From Bacillus sp. 123MFChir2 (GTDB taxonomy: Bacteria > Bacillota > Bacilli > Bacillales > Bacillaceae_G): DNA of 53,506 nt. This document shows, piece by piece, positions 1 through 33,621 of this stretch. The notes below the pieces were generated by a model. The model ran no database searches. It saw only the letters and a program-made list of their open reading frames with translations, and had not been told where the DNA came from. The stretch is from contig NZ_KB910953.1 in assembly GCF_000383235.1 (NCBI RefSeq), forward strand, positions 1-53,506, in the 5' to 3' direction. Numbering within the stretch: position 1 is the stretch's first letter; each line of letters opens with the position of its first letter. The position numbers were made by a program, and so were the translations under genes.

Positions 1-184
1 AGAAAAAGGGAAAGAGCGTTACAAAATCGAAGCGAAAAATAGTGAACTGAAGCACAGACACGGGTATGATGTAGCATCTTCCTCGGGTCTCATTGGTATG
101 CGAATGCAAGGTGCGATGGCTATATTTGCCGTCAATTTAAAACGAATTATGACCTTAATGAAGGAAAAAAAGGAAGAAAAGTAA
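1..184 (+). CDS. Transposase, C-terminal 60 residues (gene starts before the window)
   Basis: The reading frame is open from base 2 to a TAA at 182-184. It encodes the end of a DDE-type transposase: residues KNSELKHRHGYDVASSSG followed by a hydrophobic GAMAIFAVNLKRI segment and a Lys/Glu-rich tail. This is the usual C-terminus of IS1182-like transposases, where the Glu in the KNSELK segment would be part of the catalytic region. Family assignment is from memory of the motif. A strong terminator follows 13 bases after the stop. The rest of the element lies outside the window, so I cannot say whether it is intact. Confidence 0.75.
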   Translation, partial: EKGKERYKIEAKNSELKHRHGYDVASSSGLIGMRMQGAMAIFAVNLKRIMTLMKEKKEEK

Positions 185-197
185 AAAAAGAATAGAA

Positions 198-243
198 AGA
201 AAGGCGACTTTTCGTTCCATTTTGAACGAAAAGTCGCCTTTCT
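198..243 (+). terminator. Strong hairpin terminator after the transposase
   Basis: A perfect 20-bp stem (198-217 pairing with 224-243) closes a 6-base loop. The arms carry GGCGAC/GTCGCC cores with A/T-rich flanks, so it can act in both directions. It lies just after the transposase stop codon. Confidence 0.85.
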
Positions 244-288
244 AATTTCACATCCGGTTTTTGAGCTGAAAAAACGTGAGTTTTTCAG

Positions 289-417
289 TGGCCTCTCGCT
301 ACTTGCTGTCTATTTTTGTTTTAAACTTTGCACGTGGCAGGAAAAGGAACTGACCGCCTCTATGCATGGCCAGTTTCTCGCCCACCGAAAAAGAAAAGGG
401 TTTTTATGTTAGTTTCT
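289..417 (+). repeat. Dispersed repeat family R1, copy a
   Basis: The segment around GCACGTGGCAGGAAAAGG, CTGACCGCCTCTATGCATGG and CTCGCCCACC recurs at about 23060-23180, 36700-36800 (same strand), 28310-28420 and 34230-34332 (opposite strand), with a short piece near 27570-27625. Copies are about 100-130 bp, non-coding and always intergenic. This is one of the B. cereus group 'bcr'-style interspersed repeats by character; I cannot assign the number. Confidence 0.8.
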
Positions 418-693
418 CAATTTGCATTTATATGTAGAACATTTAAAATGAATATAGTTCGCTAATTTGGTGTAAAAGTGTCTTTATTTATGGAAAATCG
501 ATTAAAGGTATATTTATTGATTGAATATTCGGTTAATTAATTGACATCGCGAAGATGAAATGGTAATTTATAACTTATAATAGTTCTACTTATGGAAGAT
601 AAAACAACTATATTAAAAAGCCAGCTATCAGTAGTTACATGTTTATTTTTATAAATATGTATGTTCTTAATAAAGAATACATGTGTACTGTCT
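418..693. other. AT-rich upstream region of the lasso operon
   Basis: No coding frame is visible in this stretch. Apart from one promoter-like sequence (541-569) it is AT-rich and featureless. It separates repeat R1a from repeat R2a, which itself abuts the lasso cyclase gene. Confidence 0.5.
541..569 (+). promoter_or_regulatory. Candidate sigma-A promoter for the lasso operon
   Basis: A perfect -35 box TTGACA (541-546) is followed after 17 bases by TAATTT (564-569), a weak -10. A better -10 match, TATAAT at 576-581, is too far away (29 bases). The site lies about 245 bases before the cyclase start, giving a long untranslated leader that would contain repeat R2a. Inference only. Confidence 0.35.
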
Positions 694-783
694 GTAAAAG
701 CCCAATTCGTGAGAGGTAATGATTAGTAAGGGATGAATAAAATCTTACTGATAAAAGCTTTACTTTATCCGATTGGGCTTTTG
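694..783 (+). repeat. Dispersed repeat family R2, copy a (in the lasso leader)
   Basis: The ends AAAAGCCCAATT and ATTGGGCTTTT are inverted repeats about 60 bases apart, and inside them AGTAAG pairs with CTTACT. The order GCCCAAT / hairpin / CTGATAAAAGCTTTACTTTAT matches copy d at 27951-28033, where it reads CCCACTGATTAAAG then TTTCACTTTAT. Shorter copies lie at 8840-8881 and 17195-17250. The repeat ends about 30 bases before the cyclase start and carries an open frame that would wrongly extend that gene. Confidence 0.7.
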
Positions 784-813
784 TTTACTTTCTGCGTAAT
801 GGGAGAGGAAAAA

Positions 814-2751
814 ATGAGTGCGATAACAGGTATATTTTATTTTAATGACGAGCCTATATCAACTGAATACAGTAAGGGGCTAATGGAGTGTTTACAAAAA
901 TATCCTGCTGATAATGTTCAAATATGGCATAAAGAGAATGTATTTCTTGGCTGTCATGCACAATGGATAACACCAGAGTCCATTAGTGAACAATTGCCTT
1001 TTTATGATTCTGAAAGGCAATTGGCAATTACAGCAGATGCTATCATCGATAATCGTGATGAATTATTTGAGAGATTGCAAGTGGATTATGCAGATAGAAA
1101 AAGCATGACAGACAGCAAATTGATTTTACTCTCTTACCAGAAGTGGGGGGAAGAAGCCCCTAAATATTTAGTAGGTGATTTTGCTTTTATAATTTGGGAT
1201 AAGAAAAATAGAAAGTTGTTTGGAGCGAGAGATTTTTCTGGGAGTCGGACTCTTTATTTTTACCGCGACCAGCGCCGATTTGCTTTTTGTACGCTTATAA
1301 AGCCGTTATTTACTTTGCCCTATATCGAGAAGAAGTTGAACGAGCAATGGCTTGCTGAATTTCTAGCTATACCAGTAAATTTTGAATCGGTAGACCCTTC
1401 TCTTACTGTTTATAAACATATAGAACAGATTCCTCCTTCTCATACGATCTTGGTGACGGAGGAAAGAGTAAAACTTTCTAGATATTGTACATTAGTTGCT
1501 GGAGATAAGCTCCAGCTCAAGTCAAATGAAGAATATGAAGAAGCATTTCGGGAGGTATATCAAAGAGCGATAAGGGCGCGTTTGCGCACTCACCATCAAG
1601 TAGGAGCCCATTTGAGTGGAGGATTGGATTCGGGTTCTGTTGTTAGCTTTGCGGCAAGAGATTTATGTGCGGGAAAAAAACAATTACATACATTTAGTTA
1701 CGTTCCAGTAGAAGGATTTGTAGATTGGACACATAAGGGCAGGGTAGCTGATGAAAGACCTTTTATTCAATCGACTGTACAGCATGTAGGAAATATAAAG
1801 GATCACTATTTAGATTTTGCAGGAAGAAGTCCCTTATCAGAAGTTGATGATTGGCTGGAAACGTTAGAGATGCCATATAAATTTTTTGAGAATACATTTT
1901 GGTTAAAAGGGGTTTATGAGCAGGCATATCAGCAAGGAATCGGTGTACTCTTAAGTGGCCAAAGAGGGAATTGGACAGTATCTTGGGGCCCTGTTTTAGA
2001 CTATCAAGCGATGCTTTTAAAAAAGCTACATTGGTTTCGTTTTTTCCGTGAACTGCATTTATATAGTAGAAACTTAGGAGTGAAGAAATCGAGAGTTTTT
2101 GAAGTGGTTAGAAAAAAGGCGTTTCCGTCTTTAAATCGGCTATTTTCACTGGGAGAGGAAAGTCTTTTTCCTATAATAATCAATCCCGAATTTGCAAAGA
2201 AAATGAACGTTGTAGAGAAGCTAAAAGAGCATGGTATCGATATGACTGGTTCTTCGACTTCGAATGCGTACGAGATGAAAAAACAACAATTTGAACACTT
2301 GTATTACTGGAGTATAAATGGGACGTATGAAACGAAATTATCTTTACGTTACTCTTTATGGAATCGTGATCCAACGAATGATTTACGAATGATCCAATTT
2401 TGTTTATCAGTCCCGGAAGAACAATATGTTCAAAATGGTTTAGACCGTTCGCTTATACGGAGGGCAACAAAAAATTATCTCCCTGATAAGGTAAGGTTAA
2501 ATCAGCGCGTCCGAGGTGTTCAAGGAGCAGATGGGGTGTGTCGTATGGCACCTTCTTGGAATCAATTTATCGAGGAACTTCAACAGCTTAGCTTGGATCC
2601 TATAATCTCTGAATTTCTAGATATCGGAGTAATTAAGGCAGCAATTTTAAAAATTCAAAAGGAACCAAGGCCAGAATACGCATTTGATTTAGATTTTAGA
2701 ATTTTAATGCGTAGTTTAATTGTGTATCGGTTTATAAAAAAATTTAATTGA
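814..2751 (+). CDS. Lasso-peptide cyclase (asparagine-synthetase-like, protein C)
   Basis: The 645-residue product is an asparagine synthetase B homologue of the kind that activates an Asp/Glu side chain with ATP and closes the macrolactam ring of lasso peptides. The N-terminal half resembles a class II glutaminase fold (SAITGIFYF), but there is no Cys at position 2, so it should not hydrolyse glutamine. That is normal for lasso cyclases. The ATP-pyrophosphatase loop SGGLDS is at residues 268-273. I chose ATG 814, preceded by GGGAGAGG; the frame stays open back to 733, but that part is translated from repeat R2a. The precursor gene follows 14 bases later. Confidence 0.93.
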   Translation: MSAITGIFYFNDEPISTEYSKGLMECLQKYPADNVQIWHKENVFLGCHAQWITPESISEQLPFYDSERQLAITADAIIDNRDELFERLQVDYADRKSMTDSKLILLSYQKWGEEAPKYLVGDFAFIIWDKKNRKLFGARDFSGSRTLYFYRDQRRFAFCTLIKPLFTLPYIEKKLNEQWLAEFLAIPVNFESVDPSLTVYKHIEQIPPSHTILVTEERVKLSRYCTLVAGDKLQLKSNEEYEEAFREVYQRAIRARLRTHHQVGAHLSGGLDSGSVVSFAARDLCAGKKQLHTFSYVPVEGFVDWTHKGRVADERPFIQSTVQHVGNIKDHYLDFAGRSPLSEVDDWLETLEMPYKFFENTFWLKGVYEQAYQQGIGVLLSGQRGNWTVSWGPVLDYQAMLLKKLHWFRFFRELHLYSRNLGVKKSRVFEVVRKKAFPSLNRLFSLGEESLFPIIINPEFAKKMNVVEKLKEHGIDMTGSSTSNAYEMKKQQFEHLYYWSINGTYETKLSLRYSLWNRDPTNDLRMIQFCLSVPEEQYVQNGLDRSLIRRATKNYLPDKVRLNQRVRGVQGADGVCRMAPSWNQFIEELQQLSLDPIISEFLDIGVIKAAILKIQKEPRPEYAFDLDFRILMRSLIVYRFIKKFN

Positions 2752-2765
2752 AAGGGGGTGAGATG

Positions 2766-2891
2766 ATGAAAAAAGAATGGAAGAAACCAGTACTAGAAGT
2801 GCTTGATATTAATATGACAATGGCTGGACCAGGACATAAAATTCCGGATGCAGTTCAGCCCGATCCAGATGATCCTGTAAAGTACAGCTAA
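2766..2891 (+). CDS. Lasso-peptide precursor (protein A), paeninodin/pseudomycoidin type
   Basis: A 41-residue peptide. The leader MKKEWKKPVLEVLDINMTM has the Trp/Tyr-x-x-Pro-x-Leu element bound by the B1 protein, and Thr at position -2 before the cut. The predicted core is AGPGHKIPD (ring, Ala1 to Asp9 isopeptide bond) plus AVQPDPDDPVKYS (tail). From memory, paeninodin also starts AGPG, has Pro8-Asp9, a QPDPD tail and a terminal Ser. Ser22 is the expected phosphorylation site of the downstream kinase. ATG 2766 sits 7 bases after AAAGGGGG; ATG 2763 is an alternative adding one Met. The gene was identified from its position between cyclase and kinase. Confidence 0.93.
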   Translation: MKKEWKKPVLEVLDINMTMAGPGHKIPDAVQPDPDDPVKYS

Positions 2892-2910
2892 ACAATAAGG
2901 ATTGTATGTG

Positions 2911-2953
2911 TTTAAAGCTCTTATATAGTATGAATTTATATAAGAGCTTTAAA
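2911..2953 (+). other. 17-bp hairpin between precursor and kinase genes
   Basis: Bases 2911-2927 pair perfectly with 2937-2953 across a 9-base loop. There is no run of T after the stem, so it is more likely an RNA-stabilising or processing element, or a leaky attenuator, than a full terminator. It would raise precursor mRNA relative to the enzymes. Confidence 0.6.
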
Positions 2954-2984
2954 AATAAATTGTTATTAGTGTGGAGTGAGGAAG

Positions 2985-3917
2985 ATGTTGGCTACTGGGA
3001 GAAATGTAATATACAAAGCTTTCGGATTAAGAATAGAAAGTGAGATTCCTTTACCAGAATTGCCGCAAATGAATGAACCAACAGAGAGGACAGATATTAT
3101 CATTGAAATTGCTGATTTATCGGAGCAATGGTGTAAATATAGTGATAAATATGAGCAAAGATTTGTAGTGGAGAAAAATATAGTCATGTTTCAAGTCCCT
3201 CAAACTGCTATATTTTCTATACAAGAAGGTAGGAAGATTACTTTTTCACCTCTACCAGGAGCGGAAAAAGATAAAATACGGCTTTATCTTCTTGGAACTT
3301 GTATGGGAGCGTTATTAATACAGAAGAAAATACTTCCGTTACATGGAAGTGCGCTCGCCATTAATGGGAAAGCTTATGCTTTAATTGGTGATTCGGGGGC
3401 TGGAAAATCAACGCTTTCTTCTGCATTTTTACGTAAAGGGTATCAACTTTTAAGTGATGATGTAATTGCTGTGTCTCTTTCTTGTGAAGGTACTCCATTT
3501 GTTATGCCATCTTATCCACAACAAAAACTGTGGCAGGAAAGCTTAAATGAATTTGGAATGGAAACCAGACATTATCGTCCGTTGTTTGAAAGAGAAACGA
3601 AGTATGCTGTTCCTGTATCTTCGCAATTTTTTGCGGATCCATTACCTCTTGTAGGTGTGATTGAATTAGTGAAAACAGAGGATGAGAGCATTGAAATGAT
3701 TCAAATTGAAGGACTTGAGCGTCTTCGAACATTATTTCATCATACATTTCGCAATTTTCTAGTCCCGCGATTAGGATTGATGGAATGGCATTTTACAGTT
3801 TCTACAAATATGGTAAACAAAATTAATATGTTTCAATTACGTCGTCCAACCTCAAGATTTACTGCGCACGAACTTGTATCCCTTATATTAAGTTCTATAC
3901 ATGAAGGAGGAATATAA
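2985..3917 (+). CDS. Lasso-precursor serine kinase (HPr kinase-like, protein K)
   Basis: The 310-residue protein has a Walker A loop GDSGAGKST near residues 135-143, preceded by LPLHGSALAINGKAY, and a downstream LLSDD motif typical of HPr kinase/phosphorylase relatives. Homologues in paeninodin-type clusters phosphorylate the hydroxyl of the C-terminal Ser of the precursor, and the precursor here ends in Ser. ATG 2985 is preferred: GGAG lies 8 bases upstream. The GTG at 2976 is an alternative that adds three residues. The stop is directly followed by the next gene's ATG. Confidence 0.88.
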   Translation: MLATGRNVIYKAFGLRIESEIPLPELPQMNEPTERTDIIIEIADLSEQWCKYSDKYEQRFVVEKNIVMFQVPQTAIFSIQEGRKITFSPLPGAEKDKIRLYLLGTCMGALLIQKKILPLHGSALAINGKAYALIGDSGAGKSTLSSAFLRKGYQLLSDDVIAVSLSCEGTPFVMPSYPQQKLWQESLNEFGMETRHYRPLFERETKYAVPVSSQFFADPLPLVGVIELVKTEDESIEMIQIEGLERLRTLFHHTFRNFLVPRLGLMEWHFTVSTNMVNKINMFQLRRPTSRFTAHELVSLILSSIHEGGI

Positions 3918-4208
3918 ATGATTTCACTAGATTTCCAGATTGTGCAAAACAAAGGAAACATTGTAAGCGATATGGATGGAGAAAAAGTAATGCTGAATGT
4001 CCGAAAAGGAAAATATTACAACTTGGGGGGGATGGGAGGAGAAATATGGGATTGTATTGAAAAACCAATTACGGTTTCTCAATTGGTTACGATACTATTA
4101 TCAAATTATGATGTAGAAGAAACAGATTGTGAAAAACAGGTTCTTTCCTTTTTAGAATGTTTATTACAAGAAAATTTGATTCATATTGAGAATCAATCCA
4201 ATACGTAG
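3918..4208 (+). CDS. Lasso leader-recognition protein (PqqD-like RRE, protein B1)
   Basis: A 96-residue PqqD-family protein. In lasso systems this RiPP recognition element binds the leader and delivers the precursor to the B2 protease. The PqqD signature is visible: a beta strand segment GEKVMLNVRKGKYYNLGG, then GGEIWDCIEKP and a C-terminal helix pair. It begins at the ATG directly after the kinase stop, with GGAGGAATATAA in front, so the two are translationally coupled. Small size and position between K and B2 support the call. Confidence 0.9.
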   Translation: MISLDFQIVQNKGNIVSDMDGEKVMLNVRKGKYYNLGGMGGEIWDCIEKPITVSQLVTILLSNYDVEETDCEKQVLSFLECLLQENLIHIENQSNT

Positions 4209-4245
4209 TTTCATATCTTTTACTAGAATTATTAGAAAGGGACTC

Positions 4246-4728
4246 ATGAATATTGTGAAAAGGTTAAGAATATTTTTAGCGCTAAATACGAAAACAAAAC
4301 TGTTGTTTTTAGAGGCCTTTATTCTTTTAGGTTGGGCTCGTATATTAAAAAGTGTACCTTTTTCTAAAGTAGCACCTTCTTTAGGCGACCATATGAATGA
4401 AACATCTTTTACTCATGGTGAGTTACAGAAGGAGACATTAGAGAGTGTATCTCAAGCTATACATATTATGAGTCGCTATACTTTTTGGGAAAGTCAGTGT
4501 CTTGTGAAAGCCATAGCAGGGATGAAAATGCTTAAAAAACGTCAGATTGAAAGTACTCTTTATTTAGGAACTGCTAAAGATGATAGCGGAAAATTGATTG
4601 CACATGCATGGTTACGCAGTGGTCCTATTTATGTCACCGGGTCAGAAGGAATGGAGAAATTCACTGTCGTTGGAACATTTGCAAAGAGGGTAAGTGAACA
4701 AGCGACTAAAGGAGGAGGCAATGAATAA
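4246..4728 (+). CDS. Lasso leader peptidase (transglutaminase-like, protein B2)
   Basis: The 160-residue protein belongs to the cysteine protease family (transglutaminase fold) that removes lasso leaders. The candidate nucleophile is Cys85 (FWESQCLVKA) and the His is 120 (IAHAWLRSG). The third residue of the triad, usually Asp a little after the His, is not obvious here. ATG 4246 is chosen because AGAAAGGGA lies just upstream; an ATG at 4186 inside B1 would add 20 residues but has no ribosome site. The 3' end overlaps the nucleotidyltransferase start by 8 bases. Confidence 0.88.
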   Translation: MNIVKRLRIFLALNTKTKLLFLEAFILLGWARILKSVPFSKVAPSLGDHMNETSFTHGELQKETLESVSQAIHIMSRYTFWESQCLVKAIAGMKMLKKRQIESTLYLGTAKDDSGKLIAHAWLRSGPIYVTGSEGMEKFTVVGTFAKRVSEQATKGGGNE

Positions 4729-5911
4729 TAATGATTTTAGCCTACATGTAGAATATATCCCTAAGGAACTACAACTCCTGCTTGAAATGTTAAAAATACA
4801 GGAGGGTAATACCGTATTATCAAATAGTAATGAATGGTTTACAAATATCGACTGGGGTGCGTTTCTTAAACTTGCAATGCATCACCGCGTTTATCCATTA
4901 ATTTATTTGAAGGTGAAAGAGATAGATGAGAAGTCGATTCCTCCATATGTCATTCAAACTTTGTATCTACAATTCAAAAAAAATACTTTTCAAATGCTTC
5001 ATTTGAGCGCTGAAATGGAACAAGTAAGTAAATTATTTACTGAAAATGAGATTCGTACTCTTTTTTTGAAAGGACCGATACTTGCTCATGACCTTTACGG
5101 AGATATCTCCTTAAGGACATCTTGTGATCTAGATATTCTTATTCCGATTCATCAACTAGAAAAAGCGGAAACCCTTCTTTTAGAGAAAGGTTATGTGAAA
5201 GATGATTATATTCAAACGATATTAAACGACTGGAAATGGAGACATCATCATATAACATTTTTCCATCCTCAAAAACAGATCAAAGTTGAAATTCATTGGA
5301 GATTAAATCCTGGTCCTGGGAAGGAACCAAGCTTTGAGCAACTATGGGAACGAAAACGCAAAAGCACACTAACAAGTTACCCTATATACTTGCTGGGAAG
5401 TGAGGACTTGTTTTTATTTCTTGTTACCCATGGGGCGCGGCACGGATGGTCTAGATTGCGTTGGCTTGTAGATATAAACCAAATTGTAAGGAAAAATCTT
5501 GATTGGGCGCAGATTAATAGGCTGTTGAAGAAGTATCATTACCTTCCTATAGGAGGACAAGCGTTAATTCTGGCTTCTCAGTTATTAAATACTACAATTA
5601 TAAAAGAAATGATGGGACTGACAAATCAGAAACAATCTAAACGGTTAGCAAAAGATACATTATTTTATTTCAAAGAAATGGTGAATTTACATGCAGATTC
5701 TGTTCCTGAAGAAGTAATGATATATCACACTCGTTACTTATTTTCGTTAATGTCTAACCAGCAAAAGTTTTTATTTATTATGAGTTACCTTTATCCTTAT
5801 CCTATTGACGCTAAAACGTTACCGCTACCTAAACCCCTTCATTTTTTGTATTTTCCTTTACGTCCTTTTTTATGCTTCTGGAGGAAAACAAGGAAACACG
5901 TTTTAACATAG
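4721..5911 (+). CDS. Nucleotidyltransferase of the lasso cluster (protein N)
   Basis: A 396-residue protein of the uncharacterised nucleotidyltransferase family found in firmicute RiPP clusters. The metal-binding signature is DISLRTSCDLDILIP near residue 130, with the paired Asp residues D-x-D. A Lys/His-rich HHHITFFHPQKQ segment follows. ATG 4721 directly follows GGAGGAGGCA. I recall that the homologue of the pseudomycoidin cluster acts on the phosphorylated C-terminal Ser and adds hexose units; here that is inference. It sits inside the operon between leader peptidase and exporter, which fits a tailoring role. Confidence 0.82.
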   Translation: MNNNDFSLHVEYIPKELQLLLEMLKIQEGNTVLSNSNEWFTNIDWGAFLKLAMHHRVYPLIYLKVKEIDEKSIPPYVIQTLYLQFKKNTFQMLHLSAEMEQVSKLFTENEIRTLFLKGPILAHDLYGDISLRTSCDLDILIPIHQLEKAETLLLEKGYVKDDYIQTILNDWKWRHHHITFFHPQKQIKVEIHWRLNPGPGKEPSFEQLWERKRKSTLTSYPIYLLGSEDLFLFLVTHGARHGWSRLRWLVDINQIVRKNLDWAQINRLLKKYHYLPIGGQALILASQLLNTTIIKEMMGLTNQKQSKRLAKDTLFYFKEMVNLHADSVPEEVMIYHTRYLFSLMSNQQKFLFIMSYLYPYPIDAKTLPLPKPLHFLYFPLRPFLCFWRKTRKHVLT

Positions 5912-5921
5912 GGGGATAAAG

Positions 5922-7724
5922 ATGAAGCATATTCTATATTTTATAAAACAATTGCATTCTTTTGCAGGGAGAATTCTTTATGTGAATCTGATTGGAATGG
6001 TTTTGGTTAGTTTACTTGAAGGGATAGGACTTCTATTATTAATTCCAATGATCAGTATGAGTGGAATCTTTAATATGGGGGGAGGGGGGGTTCCTCTTTC
6101 GTCTATTTTTAATCTTTTGCAGGAAACTTCTAAAGCAACTAGTTTATCTTTCGTTCTAGGTATATATATCCTAGTGGTTGTTAGTCAAAATATTTTACAA
6201 AGAAATTTGACCATGCGAGATGTGAAAATTCAACAAGGTTTCACTCAGCAGTTAAGATGGGACATTTATAGTGTTATTTTACGAGTAAAGTGGAGTTTTT
6301 TTATCAAAAAAAGGAAGACTGATCTTATCAATGCATTAACTTCAGAATTGGCACGTGTTAGCTATGGGATTAACCTTGTTTTACAGTTATTAGCTTCTAT
6401 CGTTTTTACCTTTGTACATGTAGGTATTGCTTTCTGGTTATCTTCTAAAATAACTATATTTGTGTTATTTTGTGGTTTGTTCCTTTCGATCGTTTCACAT
6501 ATTTTTATTAAAAGAGCTAGAATGTTAGGGAGCAAAACATCTGAGCTAGCGCAAAATTATCTTGCGGGCATAACAGACCATTTTAATGGGATTAAAGATA
6601 TAAAAAGTAATACTTTAGAAGAGTCACGGTTAACTTGGTTTCGTTCTGTAACGCAAAAAATGGCTTGTGAACAAATTGAATACATGGAAATGAGATCTGC
6701 TTCCCAACTTTTTTATAAAATATCTTTGGCTGTTCTCATTGCATTTTTTATTTTTTTATCTGTAACGTTTTTTCATGCGCAATCAGAGCAATTATTATTA
6801 ATTATTCTCATTTTTTCAAGATTATGGCCTCGATTTACAAGTATTCAATCTAACCTAGAGCAACTGGCTGCAAGTATTTCAGCTTTTAAGTCTTTAATAG
6901 AGTTACAAGAAGAATGCAATAAATTTGCAGAATTACAAGATATAGAACAACAATATAAACATATAAAACCAATATCTCTAGACAAAGGAATTGAATGCCA
7001 GAACGTTTATTTTCGCTACAATCAGAAAGAATCTGTATATGCACTCCAAAATATCAATTTACAAATCCCATCTAATTGTATGACAGCTATTGTCGGACGA
7101 TCAGGTGCCGGGAAAAGTACACTAATCGATATTTTAATGGGACTTATGCAGCCAGACAAAGGAGAAGTACTAATAGATGGTACACCTCTTACAAATGATA
7201 ATTTATTATCCTTAAGAAAGTCTATTAGCTATGTGCCACAGGATCCATTTTTATTTCATGCTAGTATAAGAGAAAACTTGCTAATGATTGAGCCAGATGC
7301 AAGTGAAGAACAAATGTGGGAGTCACTGGAATTTTCAGCAGCTGCTGAATTTGTACGAAGACTACCGCAAGGGCTTGATACTCTCATCGGGGATCGTGGA
7401 GTGAGGCTTTCGGGAGGAGAGCGACAGCGGCTTGTACTAGCACGAGCTATTTTAAGAAAACCTTCGATTTTAGTGCTGGATGAAGCAACAAGTGCGTTAG
7501 ATACGGAAAACGAAGCGAAAATTCAATCTGCTCTAGAAAGATTAAAAGGAAAGATGACAATTATCGTTATTGCTCATCGTTTATCGACGATACGCAATGC
7601 TGATCAGGTGCTTGTACTAGACAATGGGGAAATTGTTCAAAACGGAGCCTTTATCGAATTGGCAAAAGAAAAAAGAGGGATGTTTAGTAAGCTGTTAGGA
7701 AATCAAGTAGAAGTTAGCGTTTAG
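5922..7724 (+). CDS. Lasso-peptide ABC exporter (protein D)
   Basis: The 600-residue half-transporter has about six N-terminal membrane segments and one ATPase domain: Walker A GRSGAGKST, signature LSGGERQR, Walker B ILVLDEATSALD, then the switch histidine in IAHRLST. All catalytic residues are canonical, so it should work as a homodimer. It exports the mature lasso peptide and usually provides immunity. The start ATG has GGGGGA just upstream, 10 bases after the N stop. It is the last gene of the operon; two hairpins follow. Confidence 0.9.
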   Translation: MKHILYFIKQLHSFAGRILYVNLIGMVLVSLLEGIGLLLLIPMISMSGIFNMGGGGVPLSSIFNLLQETSKATSLSFVLGIYILVVVSQNILQRNLTMRDVKIQQGFTQQLRWDIYSVILRVKWSFFIKKRKTDLINALTSELARVSYGINLVLQLLASIVFTFVHVGIAFWLSSKITIFVLFCGLFLSIVSHIFIKRARMLGSKTSELAQNYLAGITDHFNGIKDIKSNTLEESRLTWFRSVTQKMACEQIEYMEMRSASQLFYKISLAVLIAFFIFLSVTFFHAQSEQLLLIILIFSRLWPRFTSIQSNLEQLAASISAFKSLIELQEECNKFAELQDIEQQYKHIKPISLDKGIECQNVYFRYNQKESVYALQNINLQIPSNCMTAIVGRSGAGKSTLIDILMGLMQPDKGEVLIDGTPLTNDNLLSLRKSISYVPQDPFLFHASIRENLLMIEPDASEEQMWESLEFSAAAEFVRRLPQGLDTLIGDRGVRLSGGERQRLVLARAILRKPSILVLDEATSALDTENEAKIQSALERLKGKMTIIVIAHRLSTIRNADQVLVLDNGEIVQNGAFIELAKEKRGMFSKLLGNQVEVSV

Positions 7725-7986
7725 AGGTAGTAGGTATGAGTGGCAGGGCATGACGGAACTCAATAAATAAAATTAAAAAATGACAAAAAATCTTCTCTAT
7801 AAAATGAAAGAGATTGAATGGGGTATATTCCGCATTCAATCTCATCAATGGGAACGCGATCAATATAGGGCTCTTTACTAAGAGTAGAAAACCTTGATAC
7901 TACTGGTATCGGGGATTTTTTTTGAGGGTAAAACACATTTTTAATGTGTTTTACCCTCAAAAATGGATTTACTGTTCAAATAATTG
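7725..7986. terminator. Hairpins ending the lasso operon
   Basis: Two inverted repeats lie in this gap: an 11-bp stem at 7810-7820/7833-7843, and a perfect 21-bp stem at 7919-7939/7943-7963 with a 3-base loop. The second has its T run at the 5' side rather than the 3' side, so it is not a textbook intrinsic terminator. It separates convergent genes and probably acts in both directions. Confidence 0.55.
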
Positions 7987-8286
7987 TTAATTAGTTTGTT
8001 CTTTACGAGCCGCATCCATCATAATGAAGATAGCTGATAAAATATGCATAATCATTCCCACAAATGGAATCCATGCAATACAAGATGTAACAATTCCTAG
8101 AACGTTACCGTTAGCGCTCATACCATTCTTTTTAGCTAATACTAAAGTAATGATATGTAATGCTAACATGAAGAGGAGTGGTAGCCAGAGTAAAGAAACA
8201 ATAATTGTTCCACCTAGCACAGGTATTCCTAATAGAGCTTCCAAACCACCACTCACCCATTTTAATATTTTTACAGTGTCTTTCAA
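7987..8286 (-). CDS. Small membrane protein of unknown function
   Basis: A 99-residue protein with about three hydrophobic segments (GIPVLGGTIIVSLLWLPLL, LALHIITLVLA, and a C-terminal one around IAWIPFVGMIMHIL) and a short charged tail. It starts at TTG with GAGGAGGAC 5 bases upstream. It stands alone, convergent with the lasso operon. I do not recognise the family beyond generic small Bacillus membrane proteins, and nothing links it to lasso immunity except position. Confidence 0.75.
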   Translation of the reverse strand: MKDTVKILKWVSGGLEALLGIPVLGGTIIVSLLWLPLLFMLALHIITLVLAKKNGMSANGNVLGIVTSCIAWIPFVGMIMHILSAIFIMMDAARKEQTN

Positions 8287-8388
8287 AATTTGTCCTCCTC
8301 AAAAAATAACATCAATTCATTCTATTATTAAGTATAGCATATATATTGTTGGATTTTAAGGAATAATTTGTTATTAAAGAATATAATT

Positions 8389-8594
8389 GGTTCATCACCG
8401 TAACATGGGGTTGATTTTTTGAAAATGAGTCATTTTTCATACACGGAATGGAGAGTGGCGACTCCTGCGGGAATAGCGAGGGAAGTGAAACCCCGCAGGC
8501 TTGCCGAGGAGGCTCGCTCTCGCCCGCGGAAAGCGTCCACTCGGAGTGGAGTGTACATCTACCTATATGTCACCCCGTCTTTTGGTGATGAACC
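8389..8594. repeat. 205-bp element with inverted ends (repeat family R3)
   Basis: The left end TGGTTCATCACC (8389-8400) is repeated in inverted orientation as GGTGATGAACCA (8582-8593), and similarity continues inward (GGGG / CCCC). The centre holds the very common Bacillaceae segment GAGAGTGGCGACTCCTGCGG and GCCGAGGAGGCTCGC, GC-rich against its surroundings. The layout resembles a miniature inverted-repeat element. The open frame inside is not a gene. Confidence 0.65.
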
Positions 8595-8876
8595 ATATAA
8601 TTAGTAATTTACCTGCAAAAATATTGACGGTACCAATGATTAACATTACCTTTTATAAAGTAACTAAGTAGCTCGACAATGTTAAATTTCAATGTGTGTA
8701 ATTATTACCGAAAAATCTTTATATTTAAAAACAACTGATTTACCAAAAAAGCACACGCCATCTTATGCTATGTCTGATCAGGAATGAATCATTTGTTCAT
8801 ACCTTTTTGCTTTTTTCTTCGGCTTTTTGTTGCTTGAAGGAGTAGTCTCACATCTGCTACTGATGAAAGTTTTACT
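8595..8876. repeat. Gene gap with a short R2 repeat (copy b)
   Basis: Bases 8840-8881 read CTGCTACTGATGAAAG and TTTTACTTTATA, the tail of repeat family R2, and overlap the 3' end of the deacetylase gene. The rest is AT-rich with no supportable gene. Confidence 0.45.
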
Positions 8877-9707
8877 TTATAGCCTTTGTTTTGAAGTATG
8901 AAACATGTTTGGGAGGGTCACGAACCGTGCTCCATTAGATATAAGGTTAGGAATAAAGTGGTCGAGAGCGTCTACGGACCCTTGTAAATTCCCCCCTGGT
9001 GCAGTGTGTTGCAAGAGGATGCTTCCAGGAAAGGAATTCCCTAATACTTTATTAGTAATTTCCTTGGCATTTAAGCCTTTCCAATCTAATGTATCCACAC
9101 TCCACTGAATAATCATAAAGTTTTGTTCAGTAGCCCATTTCATTTGATTTTCATTTATAATCCCATAAGGAGGACGGAAGAATTTAGGCGCGTATCCGGT
9201 TAGGTTTTGTAAAATTTTTTCTGTTTTTAACATTTGCTCATGATATTGCTTGTCATCTATTTTTATTAAATTAGGATGATTATAAGTATGATTTCCTATG
9301 ATATGTCCTTCGTTAACAATCCGTTTTACAACCTCAGGATATCTTTCGGCATTTTCTCCTAATAAAAAAAATGTCGCTTTTACACCATGTTTTTTCAATT
9401 TATTTAATACTTGAGGAGTATAAATGAGATCTGGACCATCATCGAATGTGAGTGCAACTTCAGCCTTGTTATAAGGTCCTGTAAACGCATATGCGTATTT
9501 TTCTACCCATGAAAAAGGAGTCCATGAGCCTCTAACTGTCGGATTCTTTTGTAATATAGGAACAGTCTCCGCGTAATGTACAGGATAAAATGTATTTTGA
9601 GCAAGTGGACAAGTAATTTTTAAAGAGGAAGTGTAACGTGGAATATTATAATAAGGAATATATTTATAAGGAATTGCTACTTGGGCTGGGTAAAAATCGT
9701 ATATCAT
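8877..9707 (-). CDS. Polysaccharide deacetylase (NodB domain), PgdA-like
   Basis: A 276-residue protein with a NodB homology domain that removes N-acetyl groups from cell-wall sugars such as GlcNAc or MurNAc. Visible motifs are TFDDGPD (residues 87-93, catalytic and metal Asp), HTYNH (metal His 140 and 144), and RPPYG. The first 60 residues are Pro/Tyr-rich and lack a convincing signal peptide, which suggests an intracellular or spore role. The ATG has AAGGAGGT just upstream. Its C-terminus overlaps a short R2 repeat, so the tail may be recently altered. Confidence 0.85.
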   Translation of the reverse strand: MIYDFYPAQVAIPYKYIPYYNIPRYTSSLKITCPLAQNTFYPVHYAETVPILQKNPTVRGSWTPFSWVEKYAYAFTGPYNKAEVALTFDDGPDLIYTPQVLNKLKKHGVKATFFLLGENAERYPEVVKRIVNEGHIIGNHTYNHPNLIKIDDKQYHEQMLKTEKILQNLTGYAPKFFRPPYGIINENQMKWATEQNFMIIQWSVDTLDWKGLNAKEITNKVLGNSFPGSILLQHTAPGGNLQGSVDALDHFIPNLISNGARFVTLPNMFHTSKQRL

Positions 9708-10792: not shown

Positions 10793-11611
10793 ATGAGGAG
10801 AATTGTATTGATTGCGATTGTTTGTATTGCGATTGGGGGAATCGGTTTATTTTTTACAAGATCAGCCTTTTTTATGAAAACTGCGAATGAATCAGCTGAT
10901 ACAAAGAAATTGGAACAGAAACAATTTAAAAATGAGCAAATCAAAAGCATTAATGTTGACACAGATGTTGGAGATGTTGTGATTGAAAAAGGTAAGACTG
11001 ATTTGTTTGAAGTTCGGTATAGCGGTAATCAGGAAAAGCGAAAATTAGACGTAAACGAGAACGGCGAAATGCTACAAGTGGAAGTGAAAACGAAAAAGAA
11101 ACATATATTTGATTTTTCTTTTTTTTCATTTGATTTGAAAGATGAAAGCCTCACAGTTGTTGTGCCTGAACGTGTATATAATAAAATTGAAGCAGAGACA
11201 TCAGCAGGAACGATTCGCGTAGAAAGTATTCAAAGTAGAAATATATCTGCGCATTCAGCAGCCGGTGATGTGGAAATGAAGGAAATGAAAGTGCAGAATG
11301 TAAAAGTGTCATCTAGTGCGGGAGATATTGTTCTTCATAAAGTAGAAGGAAAAGTGCGTGCAGAGTCGGCAGCAGGAAATGTAAAGGTAACGCAGCATAA
11401 TCCAGAGTATAGTATTGAGGCGGATTCGGCAGCAGGAGACGTTAATATTCAGTTGCAGGAAATGCCAAAAGATGCTGTTGTGAAAGGCTCCGCTGCTGCA
11501 GGAGAGGTACAGATTTTCGGAAAAGAAAATAAAGAAATAACTATAGGTAGTGGAAAGGTGCAGATTAAAGGAGAAACAACAGCGGGCTCTGTAAAAATCG
11601 AGGCGAATTAA
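10793..11611 (+). CDS. DUF4097 (LiaG-like) beta-repeat protein
   Basis: A 272-residue protein with one N-terminal membrane anchor (IVLIAIVCIAIGGIGLFF) and a repetitive body in which SAAGDV/SSAGDI/SAAGNV turns recur about every 20 residues, the pattern of a right-handed beta structure as in DUF4097. It is the last gene of the padR operon, 5 bases after the DUF1700 gene, and probably acts in cell-surface stress. A palindromic terminator follows. Confidence 0.88.
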   Translation: MRRIVLIAIVCIAIGGIGLFFTRSAFFMKTANESADTKKLEQKQFKNEQIKSINVDTDVGDVVIEKGKTDLFEVRYSGNQEKRKLDVNENGEMLQVEVKTKKKHIFDFSFFSFDLKDESLTVVVPERVYNKIEAETSAGTIRVESIQSRNISAHSAAGDVEMKEMKVQNVKVSSSAGDIVLHKVEGKVRAESAAGNVKVTQHNPEYSIEADSAAGDVNIQLQEMPKDAVVKGSAAAGEVQIFGKENKEITIGSGKVQIKGETTAGSVKIEAN

Positions 11612-11612
11612 A

Positions 11613-11640
11613 AAACAGACCAAATTTGGTCTGCTTTTTA
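11613..11640. terminator. Bidirectional terminator between the DUF4097 gene and lexA
   Basis: An 18-bp perfect palindrome (11616-11633, centre AAATTT) is flanked by A-run and T-run sequences, ending both convergent genes. Confidence 0.85.
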
Positions 11641-12258
11641 ATGTAAATGACGATATACACCAATTACTTTTCCAATAACAGAAACGTTATCCAAAATAAT
11701 AGGTTCTAAAGAAGAGTTTTCTGGCTGTAAGCGGAAATGATCTTTTTCTTTGTAAAAGCGTTTTACCGTAGCTTCATTGTCTTCTGTTAAAGCGACAACG
11801 ATTTCACCATTGTATGCAGATTGCTGCTGGCGAACAACAACTAAGTCTCCGTCAAAAATTCCTGCTTCAATCATACTGTCTCCAGAAATGCGTAACATAA
11901 ATACTTGATCTGAACCTGAAACGAGGTTCGCTGGAAGCGGAAAATGTTCTTCTACACTTTCAACTGCTGTAATTGGTAAACCAGCTGTAACTTTTCCGAC
12001 AATCGGTACGTGAACGACTGGTTGCGTATTGGCTTGGTTACTGTCGTCTCCTAAAATTTCAATTGCTCTCGGTTTTGTAGGATCGCGGCGAATGTAGCCT
12101 TTTTCCTCTAAGCGAGATAAATGTCCGTGCACAGTAGAGCTAGAAGCAAGGCCGACTGCTTGGCCGATTTCACGTACGGAAGGTGGATAACCTTTTTCTT
12201 GTACTTTTTGTTTAATGAAGTCGAGAATGTCTTGTTGCCGTTTCGTTAACTTCTCCAT
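11638..12258 (-). CDS. lexA: LexA, SOS repressor
   Basis: 206 residues, the usual LexA length. The N-terminal winged helix has [19 protein letters not shown]. The self-cleavage site Ala-Gly is in [10 protein letters not shown], and the catalytic dyad is Ser in [10 protein letters not shown] and Lys in [10 protein letters not shown]. On RecA activation it cuts itself and releases DNA-repair genes. It is divergent from yneB, as in B. subtilis, with an SOS box between them. The ATG is preceded by AGGTGTTAAAAAT. Confidence 0.97.
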
Positions 12259-12323
12259 ATTTTTAACACCTCGTTTTCTACAAGTTTTCTTATTTTTATT
12301 ATAACATGCAAGAAAACATTCTA

Positions 12324-12337
12324 CAAACGTAAGTTCG
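12324..12337 (+). promoter_or_regulatory. SOS box (LexA operator)
   Basis: CAAACGTAAGTTCG fits the Bacillus LexA operator CGAAC-N4-GTTCG with one mismatch (A for the first G). It lies between the divergent lexA and yneB starts, so LexA can control both. Confidence 0.7.
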
Positions 12338-12384
12338 AATAAAAGCTACAAATATGATACACTATGATGTGAAAAGTGAGATAG

Positions 12385-13341
<957 letters not shown>

Positions 13342-29952: not shown

Positions 29953-30085
29953 TGGAATTTTATGTTAATATATCGAGATGAATATTTTAAATTTTTTGGT
30001 TATTTTTAAAAAGGGATATTCTTCTATAAAAAATTTAAATATGGTAATTCGTCTAATTTCGTATGTTATGTAAAGGATGGAGAAA

Positions 30086-31831
30086 ATGGGTGCACACAGA
30101 AAAAGAAATATTACTTTCTTTTGGAAATATGTAAAAAAACAAAAACTTGCCGTATCGCTTCTTTTGTTAATATCAGCGGTTAATATTGGACTTTTGCTCA
30201 TAAATCCTCAAATATCAAGATATTTTATTGATGAGGCAACAAAAGGGAATGGAGGCAAAAATTTAATAGTTGCTACTTTGCTGTTTATTTTATGTGCTTT
30301 TCTAGCACAGTTACTTAGTCTTGTAATCGTTTATATAGGAGAGAAGGTTGCTTGGAAAGCTACGAATGATATACGAACTGATTTAATTACGCATTGTATA
30401 AATTTAGATATGTCATTTCACAAAGAAAATAAACCAGGCGAATTATTAGAAAGAGTAGATGGAGATGTATCAAAATTATTTGATTTATTTTCAAAGATAT
30501 TTTTAAATGTACTAAATAATTTCATACTTTTATTAGGAACTTTAATTATTCTCTTTTATGAAAATGTTCTTATTGGTATAAGTCTTACCATTTTTGCCAT
30601 TTTTGCAATAGTTCTTTTATGGAAGGTAAAGTCAAAGACTGAAAATCATTGGGTAAAATCGAGTGAAGTAAATGCAGAGTTAAGTGGATTTATAGGAGAG
30701 AATATCTCCAGTACAGAAGATATTGCTTCTAGTGGTGCGAGAGAGTATGTGATGGATAATTTTTATAAATTAAACAGGAGAATATTCCCTGTATTTCGGA
30801 AGGCTAGATTAACGTGGGCTACTATGTGGTCAGTAACAATCACAATATTTGCTGTTGGAACGATAATCGCTTTTTCAGTATCTACATATTTATGGACAAA
30901 AGGTGTTATAACAATTGGAACAGCTTACTTAATATTTAATTATACACAGATTTTAAGAAGACCAATTGAGCAAATTAGAGTGAATATTCAAGAATTGCAG
31001 GTGGCAGGGGCAAGTTTTGTGAGAGTAAATGATTTATTTATGACAAAATCATCGCTGAAGTATGGAGAAGAAACATTTGATTCTTCAAAGCCATTACATA
31101 TAAAATTCAATAATGTAGATTTTCAATATAAAGAAGGAATAGATGTATTAAAAGATGTTTCTATTCAAGTAGATGGCGGGAGAACTCTTGGTGTATTAGG
31201 TCATACTGGAAGCGGTAAAACGTCGTTAGCTCGACTTATTGTAAGAATGTATGACATAAAAAGCGGAGAAATATTATTAAATAATAAAAATATAACATTA
31301 ATAAGGGAAGAAGAGATTGTAAAAAATATAGCGTATATAACGCAGGACGTTCAAATATTAACAGCTACAGTTAGAGATAATATAACATTGTTTAAGAAGG
31401 CCATTAAAGATGAAGATATTATAAAAACTATATACGAATTAGGGTTTCAAGATTGGTATGAAAGCTTACCCAATGGATTAGATACTTATCTAGAACTAGG
31501 CAGTAAGAGTTTATCATCTGGAGAAGCTCAGTTATTATCATTTATTAGGGTGTTTCATAAGAATCCAACACTTATTATTTTTGATGAGGCTACATCAAGA
31601 ATGGATTCTGCGACTGAGCAGCTTATTGATAGTGCTCTAGATAAACTTGTAAAGAATAGGACATGCATTATAATTGCACACAGACTGTCGACTCTTAATA
31701 GGGCACAAGATATCTTACTTCTTGAGAATGGTAAAGTAGTCGAATTTGGGGAAAGAAAAACACTTTTAGAAGATGAAAGTACGAAATATCATCAGTTGCT
31801 TCAACGTGGTGTAGAAGAGGTGCTTGTATAA
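30086..31831 (+). CDS. ABC exporter, first subunit (canonical Walker B, degenerate signature)
   Basis: 581 residues: six membrane segments, then Walker A GHTGSGKTS, Walker B TLIIFDEATSRMDS with catalytic Glu, but signature LSSGEAQL. It forms a heterodimer with the next gene. The substrate is unknown, though such pairs next to no enzyme genes usually export drugs or peptides. ATG 30086 is preferred: 30077 lies directly on the AAAGG site. The pair interrupts ccdC and yneK, neighbours in B. subtilis, and is markedly AT-rich. Confidence 0.85.
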   Translation: MGAHRKRNITFFWKYVKKQKLAVSLLLLISAVNIGLLLINPQISRYFIDEATKGNGGKNLIVATLLFILCAFLAQLLSLVIVYIGEKVAWKATNDIRTDLITHCINLDMSFHKENKPGELLERVDGDVSKLFDLFSKIFLNVLNNFILLLGTLIILFYENVLIGISLTIFAIFAIVLLWKVKSKTENHWVKSSEVNAELSGFIGENISSTEDIASSGAREYVMDNFYKLNRRIFPVFRKARLTWATMWSVTITIFAVGTIIAFSVSTYLWTKGVITIGTAYLIFNYTQILRRPIEQIRVNIQELQVAGASFVRVNDLFMTKSSLKYGEETFDSSKPLHIKFNNVDFQYKEGIDVLKDVSIQVDGGRTLGVLGHTGSGKTSLARLIVRMYDIKSGEILLNNKNITLIREEEIVKNIAYITQDVQILTATVRDNITLFKKAIKDEDIIKTIYELGFQDWYESLPNGLDTYLELGSKSLSSGEAQLLSFIRVFHKNPTLIIFDEATSRMDSATEQLIDSALDKLVKNRTCIIIAHRLSTLNRAQDILLLENGKVVEFGERKTLLEDESTKYHQLLQRGVEEVLV

Positions 31832-33621
31832 TGGATCAGAACATAAGAGAGAGTCAATTTTTATGGAGCTTGATCAAATATAAACCAATTCTTTACACAG
31901 TAATTATTTTGATGGAGTTTGTAATAGGAAGTATACCAATTATAGAGGGAATACTTATTAAAGAGTTTTTTGATGTTATTGGTGGGAAAAGTACTTCTAT
32001 ATTTGGTATATATGAGCTAATAGGGCTTATGGGAATAGTCGCATGTTTTCATATATTTATTATGTGGGTATATTTTAACAAAACAGCTACACATGGATTT
32101 TATATAAATACATTACTAAAAAGAAATATGTTAAGTTCCATATTAAAAAAACATGGTGGAAAAGCAATCAAAACCCCTGTAGGAGAAGTTTTAAATTCTT
32201 TTAGGGATGATGTGTCGCAAATTGGAACATGTATTTCTTGGTTACCTACAATAATAGGACAAATGATTCGTGCGTTAGGATCTATTGTTATCTTATTTTT
32301 AATTGATGATAAAATCACTGTATTTGTTTTTATACCTCTTGTGATCGTGATTCTATTAGCTCAGAAGTCTGAAAAAAATATCGAAAAAAATAGGGAAGAA
32401 GGTAGAAAAGCAACTGGAACTGTGAATGCAGCTATAGGAGAAATATTTGAATCTATATTGTTAATTAAATCATCGGGTGCTAAAAAGGATATTATGTTGA
32501 ACTTAGATGAATTAAATCAAAGAAGACATAAGGCGATGATTAAAGATTCTATGTTAACCCAATTAATAGATTCAATATATAATAACGTATCCAATATAGG
32601 GACAGGGGTAATTTTACTTTTGTGTGCAAATTCAATTAGTACCGGTCAATTTACTGTTGGTGATTTTAGTATATTTGTTTACTATTTAGTTTTTATTACT
32701 GATAGCATTGAGTCATTAGGGAATTTTATTGTTTATTTTAAGCAGACGAAAGTCGGATACCGTAACATACTGACTCAAGTTAATATAAGAAAAGAGCCGG
32801 AAATTTTAGTTAAACATAAGGAAATCTTCTTAAAGAATGATCAAGAGCATTTTTCTAATGTAAAGGATGAACAACGTCAGATGACGAGATATGATGAAGA
32901 TCTAGAAAAGGATTTAAAAGTTTTAGAGGTAAAGGGATTGACATATCAATATAGTGGATTGGAAAGTGGAATAAAGAACATAAATTTCACTTTAAAAAAA
33001 GGAGAAATTTTAGTGATTTGTGGACGGACAGGATCAGGAAAGAGTACGCTTATTAAATCACTAATTGGACTTTTACCGATGGATTCTGGAGAAGTATATT
33101 GGAATGGAGAGCAAGTTAATGATGTAAAGCATTTCTTTTCCCCACCAATTAGTGCATATAGCGCACAAGTTCCCAATCTTTTTAGTGACACTGTGAAAAA
33201 TAATATCCTTCTAGGAGTACGGGAAGAAGAGGTAGATTTAGAAACTGCCATAAAATCTGCTGTTTTAGAAAAGGATATTGCTAAATTAGAGAATGGATTA
33301 GATACAATGATAGGATCAAAAGGGACTAAACTATCAGGGGGACAAATTCAAAGGGTCGCAGCTGCACGTATGTTTGTAAGAAATCCGCAACTGCTAGTTT
33401 TTGATGATATTTCCAGTGCACTCGATATAAAAACGGAAACATTATTGTGGACAAGGTTAATTGCTAATAATAAAGCGAGTTGTGTCATTGTATCTAATAG
33501 GAGGATGATTCTTGAAAAGGCAGATCAGATCATTGTTTTAAAGGATGGGATTATAGAAGCTCAAGGCATTTTAGATGAAGTACTACACACTTCTAGTGAA
33601 ATAAAATATATTATAGATTAA
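31831..33621 (+). CDS. ABC exporter, second subunit (degenerate Walker B)
   Basis: 596 residues: six membrane segments, Walker A GRTGSGKST, canonical signature LSGGQIQRVAA, Walker B LLVFDDISSALD, where Asp replaces the catalytic Glu. A hydrophilic linker (about residues 330-360, KHKEIFLKNDQEHFSNVKDE) sits before the ATPase domain. The ATG overlaps the previous stop by one base (TAATG), so translation is coupled. With the partner it gives one active and one degenerate ATP site. Confidence 0.86.
   Translation: MDQNIRESQFLWSLIKYKPILYTVIILMEFVIGSIPIIEGILIKEFFDVIGGKSTSIFGIYELIGLMGIVACFHIFIMWVYFNKTATHGFYINTLLKRNMLSSILKKHGGKAIKTPVGEVLNSFRDDVSQIGTCISWLPTIIGQMIRALGSIVILFLIDDKITVFVFIPLVIVILLAQKSEKNIEKNREEGRKATGTVNAAIGEIFESILLIKSSGAKKDIMLNLDELNQRRHKAMIKDSMLTQLIDSIYNNVSNIGTGVILLLCANSISTGQFTVGDFSIFVYYLVFITDSIESLGNFIVYFKQTKVGYRNILTQVNIRKEPEILVKHKEIFLKNDQEHFSNVKDEQRQMTRYDEDLEKDLKVLEVKGLTYQYSGLESGIKNINFTLKKGEILVICGRTGSGKSTLIKSLIGLLPMDSGEVYWNGEQVNDVKHFFSPPISAYSAQVPNLFSDTVKNNILLGVREEEVDLETAIKSAVLEKDIAKLENGLDTMIGSKGTKLSGGQIQRVAAARMFVRNPQLLVFDDISSALDIKTETLLWTRLIANNKASCVIVSNRRMILEKADQIIVLKDGIIEAQGILDEVLHTSSEIKYIID

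Follow-up and report, generated by a model that had tools for sequence, protein, structure and literature searches.

The stretch of DNA considered here, hereafter the window, comprises 53,506 nucleotides of contig NZ_KB910953.1 from Bacillus sp. 123MFChir2, and close to its left end it carries seven co-directional open genes (814-7724) which, as judged from open reading frames (ORFs) and matches to family models, follow the order C-A-K-B1-B2-N-D and very probably constitute a complete lasso-peptide operon. Between the precursor gene (A) and the kinase gene (K) stands a strong hairpin that recurs behind related precursor genes in other genomes, and it is this recurring hairpin, rather than the operon itself, that we consider to matter more. 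The genes and structural features of the locus are the following.

695..785, + strand: long hairpin, limits approximate, in what is presumed to be the 5' untranslated region of C (RNA fold)
814..2751, + strand: C, lasso peptide isopeptide-forming cyclase, asparagine-synthetase-like, 645 aa (NF033535, PF00733, PF13537)
2763..2891, + strand: A, precursor peptide, 42 aa (NF033524)
2763-2822, + strand: leader of A, 20 aa, with a WxxP motif and Thr at -2
2823-2888, + strand: core of A, 22 aa, identical to that of a predicted cluster in Bacillus sp. AFS055030 (locus L001 of our collection)
2911..2953, + strand: hairpin of 18 consecutive pairs (one G-U) between A and K (RNA fold, model R1)
2985..3917, + strand: K, kinase resembling HPr kinase, whose predicted target is the C-terminal Ser of the precursor (weak Hpr_kinase_C)
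3918..4208, + strand: B1, RiPP recognition element (RRE), PqqD-like, paeninodin type (NF033536, PDB 9x90)
4246..4728, + strand: B2, leader peptidase, transglutaminase-like Cys protease (NF033537)
4721..5911, + strand: N, NTP_transf_5 nucleotidyltransferase-like protein, PsmN counterpart (PF14907)
5922..7724, + strand: D, ABC exporter, permease and ATPase (PF00005, PF00664)

A preliminary description of this DNA had assigned the seven genes to one tight lasso operon of the paeninodin/pseudomycoidin type, and both the type and the gene assignments are upheld by the family models (for K weakly, by matches below cut-off) and by the recurrence of the gene order. The tightness holds, by the distances between coordinates, for C-A (11 nt), K-B1 (0 nt), B2-N (an 8-nt overlap) and N-D (10 nt), but not for A-K, where 93 nt accommodate the hairpin, nor for B1-B2 (37 nt). 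Relatives were gathered in one scan of genome contigs, from which the best 79 distinct loci of 184 confirmed stretches were retained; an ORF-level comparison finds K in all 79, B1 and B2 in 76, D in 73 and N in 70, with the best-scoring ORFs running C-K-B1-B2 in 76 of the 79 loci and continuing with N and D in 54. Recurrence of the order at these rates places the arrangement far beyond chance. The cyclase frame has a further ATG upstream, at 733; the start at 814 (MSAITG) is preceded by a Shine-Dalgarno-like GGAGAGGA and agrees with the family, S2, A3 and I4 being found in 99-100% of 80 aligned cyclases. The comparison of precursor and cyclase with databases, a step the same description had proposed, places the former in the paeninodin family and matches the latter to the lasso cyclase model. 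From these comparisons we put at about 0.93 the probability that this is a complete lasso-peptide operon of the paeninodin family whose gene set is of the pseudomycoidin type. Two observations count against this assignment: the score of C against the lasso cyclase model NF033535 (416.8 bits) lies below the cut-off of 525, and promoter-like sites in 1-9000 number 23 against 32.2 expected, none of them standing out.

The enzymes themselves appear intact. C aligns over its full length with its relatives, scores above the cut-offs of PF00733 (Asn_synthase) and PF13537 (GATase_7), and combines a degenerate glutaminase start (MSAI) with an intact LSGGLDS loop that is invariant across the 80 aligned cyclases (all conservation counts include the 123MFChir2 protein). 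N scores 216.9 bits against PF14907 (NTP_transf_5; cut-off 31.2), all 70 aligned N proteins sharing its D136 and D138, and D matches PF00005 and PF00664, its HepA/MsbA-like NCBIfam matches falling below their cut-offs. B2 scores 112.6 bits against NF033537 (lasso B2 protein; cut-off 33), with the catalytic C85 present in every one of the 77 aligned B2 proteins and H120 in all but one. In McjB the triad is completed by an Asp 12 residues after the His. The preliminary description had seen no obvious third triad residue in B2, and rightly so, the absence being common to the family: the position 12 residues past the catalytic His carries an acid in 0 of 77 proteins (Gly in 76, a gap in one), and the position of E134 holds Glu or Asp in 74 of 77, that of D112 Asp or Glu in 76 of 77. 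As a family-wide trait, the missing residue is no sign of inactivation, and a damaged B2 was rejected as an explanation. A degenerate or silent operon, in which B2 without its third catalytic residue would leave the strain with no product, could appeal to that position and to the lack of an outstanding promoter; it is nevertheless very unlikely in view of the 0 of 77 count, the seven open frames and the cleavage of the paeninodin precursor in vitro by PadeB2 together with PadeB1, as given in passages of PMC5067487 (PadeB2 lies outside the 77-protein alignment). With frames and catalytic residues intact, a complete operon that probably works in this strain is the reading we retain.

K has Hpr_kinase_C and HprK-related matches that are weak and without exception below cut-off; its residues H120, K141, D158 and D159 occur in all 78 aligned K proteins, and it keeps the His-Lys-Asp-Asp set reported for lasso kinases in excerpts of PMC9266682. 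B1 scores 135.2 bits against NF033536 (lasso PqqD-family chaperone; cut-off 80), and its nearest solved relative is PbaB1 (PDB 9x90, E 1.2e-32), with which it shares a KYYNLG stretch in the alignment. Allowing for an inferred numbering offset, this stretch and F78 appear to match residues named for PbaB1 in passages of PMC13381572, and Gly37 would correspond to PbaB1 Gly42, which the same source links to the exclusion of YxxP leaders. These features bear on a further alternative, namely that the locus is a cluster for a linear polyphosphorylated peptide (LPP) and not for a lasso peptide. According to excerpts of PMC13381572, LPP clusters share with the present one a separate RRE, an HprK-like kinase (here K), an NTP transferase (here N) and an MsbA-like exporter; the same excerpts give them a SipW-like peptidase, a YxxP leader and no cyclase of their own, whereas the present operon has both C and B2 and a leader of the WxxP type, and its B1 is nearest to PbaB1, with the LppB entry (9x8z) reaching only E 0.06. 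Neither a SipW-like peptidase nor a second RRE was found among the seven operon genes in family-model searches. An LPP cluster was rejected on these grounds and seems to us extremely unlikely.

The precursor (2763-2891) consists of the leader MMKKEWKKPVLEVLDINMTM and the 22-residue core AGPGHKIPDAVQPDPDDPVKYS, and scores 71.7 bits against NF033524, "paeninodin family lasso peptide" (cut-off 27). The leader contains a WxxP motif (WKKP) and Thr at -2 (EWKKPVLEVLDINMTM), the Trp being near-invariant among paeninodin leaders according to passages of PMC13381572. The core begins with a small residue, Ala1, carries an acidic Asp9 and ends in Ser, as do 92 of 94 precursor ORFs picked by regular expression, the exceptions being the precursor of L045, which ends in Cys, and a spurious ORF in L069. 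Ala1 and Asp9 we presume, from paeninodin, to be the ring-closing pair. The core is not new, an identical one being present in the predicted L001 cluster; the exact string was not found in the literature searched.

In the pathway that we propose by analogy, B1 would bind the WKKP leader, K would phosphorylate the C-terminal Ser22 of the precursor, N would probably add a hexose to the Ser phosphate, the reaction reported for PsmN, B2 would remove the leader behind Thr-Met, C would close the ring around the threaded tail by joining Ala1 to the Asp9 side chain, and D would export the product; in pseudomycoidin, as described in passages of PMC9266682, PsmK phosphorylates Ser and PsmN adds hexoses. 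The lasso topology and expression in this strain are likewise inferred, and the predicted products would have computed [M+H]+ values of 2285.12 (lasso), 2365.09 (with phosphate) and 2527.14 (with phosphate and one hexose). By itself the operon is ordinary, with a core already present elsewhere, and the cluster contributes one more peptide to a family that is widespread. Of 299 sampled genomes of one order, 63 have a cyclase at E 1e-60 or better and 63 a paeninodin-family precursor, the two sets differing slightly; paeninodins are reported from 344 of 9173 complete Bacilli genomes in excerpts of PMC13381572, where the biological role of the family is described as still unknown. The B. cereus group has published examples as well: besides the KPR-7A precursor compared below, and in the portions of the sources at hand, PMC10368454 names BaceB2 from B. 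cereus VD115, and PMC13365238 gives paeninodin-like clusters for B. silvicola and its relatives.

The hairpin at 2911-2953 begins 20 nt past the precursor stop, its stem ending in AGCTTTAAA, followed by AATAAATT; the RNA fold of 2889-2984 has an energy of -25.2 kcal/mol (z -5.5), a value as low being reached by 0 of 200 shuffles. In relatives the hairpin usually follows soon after the precursor stop, and its stem is often GCCCTTATAC..GTATAAGGGC. This was assessed for 93 precursors from 78 of 81 sources (the 79 loci, one plasmid record and the 123MFChir2 locus), no precursor being found by pattern in L048, L054 and L064 (L048 has one by another pattern) and the spurious ORF of L069 being dropped. 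The best hairpin within 150 nt past the stop exceeds the 95th percentile of mononucleotide-shuffled controls in 89 of the 93 cases, and the string CCTTATA, counted independently of the picking of hairpins, lies within 150 nt of 53 of the 93 stops, compared with 410 of 20,000 random 150-nt windows from the same loci. Among the 87 precursors of named loci the best-scoring hairpin starts at a median of 29 nt past the stop; in 15 cases a further cyclase, and not K, is the next operon gene recognised (CTTATA is present in 8 of these 15). Since the hairpin lies close to the stop, and since a cyclase comes next in those 15 cases, it belongs to the precursor and not to K.

A model of the element, R1, was built from 66 of the 93 hairpins, chosen by loop length, position and score but not by sequence, with identical copies dropped; changes on both sides are seen in 9 of 10 pairs. 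At 2911-2953, itself one of the 66 training rows, R1 scores 35.6 bits on the + strand and 36.2 on the - strand. Further regions were taken downstream of 60 of 81 cyclase places (the 20 best, already among the loci, and one piece of a split match being left out), and after setting aside 7 that are the same DNA as training loci, R1 matches at E 0.01 or better in 28 of the remaining 53. In whole genomes it matches the post-cyclase site in 14 of 14 lasso genomes, as the best match in 13, although several of these are training genomes and only 150 candidates were scored per genome, so that this is not an independent test. When strands are scored symmetrically, G.T cells exceed A.C cells by 56 to 16 (91 of 93 hairpins passing the score limit) and, among further hairpins, by 18 to 6 (27 of 29), relatedness being uncorrected in both counts; such an excess is expected of folding of the sense-strand RNA.

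Several results limit the case for a specific and general element, and they should be read together. The proportion of paired cells in the R1 alignment, 97.2%, is partly a product of selection, its rows having been picked for good hairpins; 25 of the 53 further regions give no R1 match at E 0.01; CCTTATA accompanies only 12 of 29 further precursors; 7 of 8 cyclase-free genomes yield a match at E 1 or better (best 3.0e-4); and, among 13 off-operon matches examined, two follow extra precursors and some seven of the other 11 resemble plain terminators, with an A tract before and a T tract after. No Rfam family scores above its gathering score in the window, the best match at 600-3000 (nos_TCE, 23.1 bits, gathering 60) being taken as chance. 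Listings from a literature search contained no description of the hairpin, which the original paeninodin and pseudomycoidin reports may nevertheless describe, and the main text of PMC13381572 makes no mention of a hairpin, terminator, GNAT, acetyltransferase or acyltransferase.

As to function, we give about even odds to the hairpin being a 3' element of the precursor message that would protect this message or partly uncouple the precursor from the enzyme genes, with the outcome that precursor would be made in excess over the enzymes. Comparable stem-loops follow lantibiotic precursor genes. A somewhat less probable reading makes the hairpin a common intrinsic terminator that lets part of the transcription through and owes the conservation of its sequence to descent only. 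At least 5 T occur in the 8 bases after 39 of 93 hairpins, against 296 of 1860 random positions, and R1 finds terminator-like sites in other contexts, as a terminator would lead one to expect; yet 54 of the 93 have no T tract, the stem here ends in AGCTTTAAA and continues with AATAAATT, and loci of both Bacillaceae and Paenibacillaceae repeat the stem sequence, their loops ranging from 3 to 22 nt, with the both-sided changes described above. With a T tract after only 39 of 93, some of the hairpins may be terminators, whereas most, including that at 2911-2953, are not canonical ones. The near-equal scores of the two strands under R1 would also suit a DNA palindrome bound by a regulator, but the highly variable spacing of the arms, the position after the gene and the bias of wobble pairs to the sense strand make this improbable. 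Should the hairpin, as an element of the precursor message, set precursor abundance, it ought to be retained when such clusters are refactored, and it offers a short DNA signature for locating precursor genes.

The use of the hairpin as a signature leads beyond the lasso operon, as the two off-operon R1 matches mentioned above follow precursors with the same leader and no adjacent cyclase. From the 299-genome sample, 19 regions were selected whose paeninodin-family precursor is not adjacent to a listed cyclase, and 15 of them adjoin a gene for a GNAT/FeeM-related acyltransferase, with Pfam scores below or barely above cut-off. When the 299 genomes are searched with one such protein, 15 of the homologues are strong (E 2e-54 or better) and 10 weak (E 6e-19 or worse); all 15 strong homologues lie at most 400 nt from a paeninodin-leader precursor, and two of them have stop codons in the matched stretch. 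The acyltransferase-linked extra precursors are those of L207-L214, L217-L220, L222, L224 and L225 (also L105 and L110). After the presumed cut site the core begins with Lys (K[FG]...) and ends in Ser in 14 of 15, the precursor of L210 not being resolved, and L224 has a second precursor whose core begins with Phe. A lasso cyclase is also present in 14 of the 15 genomes with a strong homologue; in G006 there is no cyclase at E 1e-60 and no B1 or B2 match. Of the neighbours, five were tested and all proved to be Wzz-like chain-length proteins; four of these stand next to a precursor linked to the acyltransferase. Acylation of Lys1 by a GNAT enzyme is known in nostolysamides (passages of PMC13060382), an analogy which suggests that the extra precursors may give rise to linear peptides acylated on Lys1.

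These strands can be drawn together in a joint reading, which we hold only tentatively and regard as doubtful. The hairpin would be a dedicated, sequence-specific RNA element travelling with paeninodin-type leaders, fixing the ratio of precursor to enzymes and marking precursor genes even away from the cyclase; elsewhere, extra precursors and their dedicated GNAT/FeeM-like acyltransferase would yield another peptide, linear, acylated on lysine 1 and possibly phosphorylated on Ser, with the RRE, peptidase and kinase supplied by that genome's own lasso operon. Two findings against it led us to lower our estimate slightly: in 5 of the 19 regions (L215, L219, L223, L224 and L225) the precursor nevertheless has K, N or D genes next to it, and an R1 match at E below 0.001 is present in only 6 of the 19. 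If the joint reading is true, one lasso operon would serve two different peptide products, and the pairs of extra precursor and acyltransferase, exposed in part through the hairpin, are a lead for separate work.

Upstream of the cyclase, the fold of 690-800 containing the hairpin at 695-785 has an energy of -30.8 kcal/mol (z -4.3, 0 of 200 shuffles as low); its terminator-like 3' side carries GGGCTTTTGTTT, about 28 nt before the C start codon, and it is possibly an attenuator. In relatives, a loose unaligned scan found candidates for such a 5' terminator-like hairpin in 49 of 79 loci. Farther upstream, the C-terminal end of an IS1182-family transposase (2-184; 43.2 bits against NF033551, below the full-length cut-off) lies about 630 nt from the cyclase, with a strong hairpin at 198-243 directly behind it. 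Downstream, an element at 8425-8570 is 75-82% similar over 52-62% to sequences in Peribacillus, Bacillus badius, Niallia and Priestia plasmids, with four places in one Niallia plasmid record, and is possibly a dispersed Bacillaceae repeat; adjacent ABC exporter-like genes stand at 30077-31831 and 31831-33621, no obvious substrate gene having been noticed among ORFs of at least 120 aa. Carriage by a known plasmid was rejected, the near-identity search of 700-7800 giving one match at 5% coverage, to a Priestia aryabhattai plasmid whose own cyclase is 60.1% identical to C; carriage by a known phage was likewise rejected, since all that 1-25000 gave among phages was its lexA stretch, matched by two Listeria phage records. 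Against 398 genomes sampled across the class, the single match, at 68% identity, was to 11600-13100. The best PDB match of the downstream transketolase is 3hyl (1398 bits over 666 aa), which we take to be a Bacillus anthracis protein and hence to point to the B. cereus group, and the operon is probably located in a Bacillus cereus-group chromosome.

Other arrangements were seen among the relatives. Tandem lasso clusters with two precursors occur in L004, L013, L015, L016, L018, L034, L039, L061, L067, L074, L078 and L079, the second precursor having a longer core, NGPGNANxDCFDxSE/D.., with two Cys. A plasmid-borne paeninodin cluster is found in L101 (NZ_CP064100.1, Priestia aryabhattai plasmid pB2.3), where the annotation gives an aldolase at the kinase position and, between B2 and the transporter, lists no N gene.

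Compared with known and predicted systems, the present cluster is closest in its core to the predicted L001 cluster, which has the same 22-aa core and the same gene order but a cyclase only 73% identical, other enzymes and an exporter 58-66% identical, and one differing residue, Glu for Val, in the shared stretch of the leader. The published predicted precursor of Bacillus cereus KPR-7A (excerpts of PMC7533575) is similar, with an AGPG.K.PDAVQPD core identical at 16 of 22 positions; it differs in six core residues, and its first Ala is assigned to the leader in that source. Paeninodin itself, from Paenibacillus dendritiformis C454, shares the NF033524 precursor family, the AGPG start, Asp9, the PDPD tail and the C-terminal Ser, as well as the C-A-K-B1-B2-D order quoted from PMC5067487, and 15 of 23 aligned core columns are identical; it differs in ring positions 5-7 (HKI here for TST), in the tail (DDPVKYS here for DEDVHYDS) and in that the quoted paeninodin order in PMC5067487 contains no N gene. 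Pseudomycoidin, from Bacillus pseudomycoides DSM 12442, resembles the present cluster in having K and N genes beside its lasso genes (passages of PMC9266682), whereas its core, AGPGKRLVDQVFEDEDEQGALHHS as given in an excerpt of PMC12427821, is identical to the core here in only 9 of 24 aligned columns; the identification of the product as pseudomycoidin itself was rejected since the published core differs, the gene set being common to both and the core not pseudomycoidin-like. As predicted from sequence, the product is thus paeninodin-like in its core and pseudomycoidin-like in its gene set.

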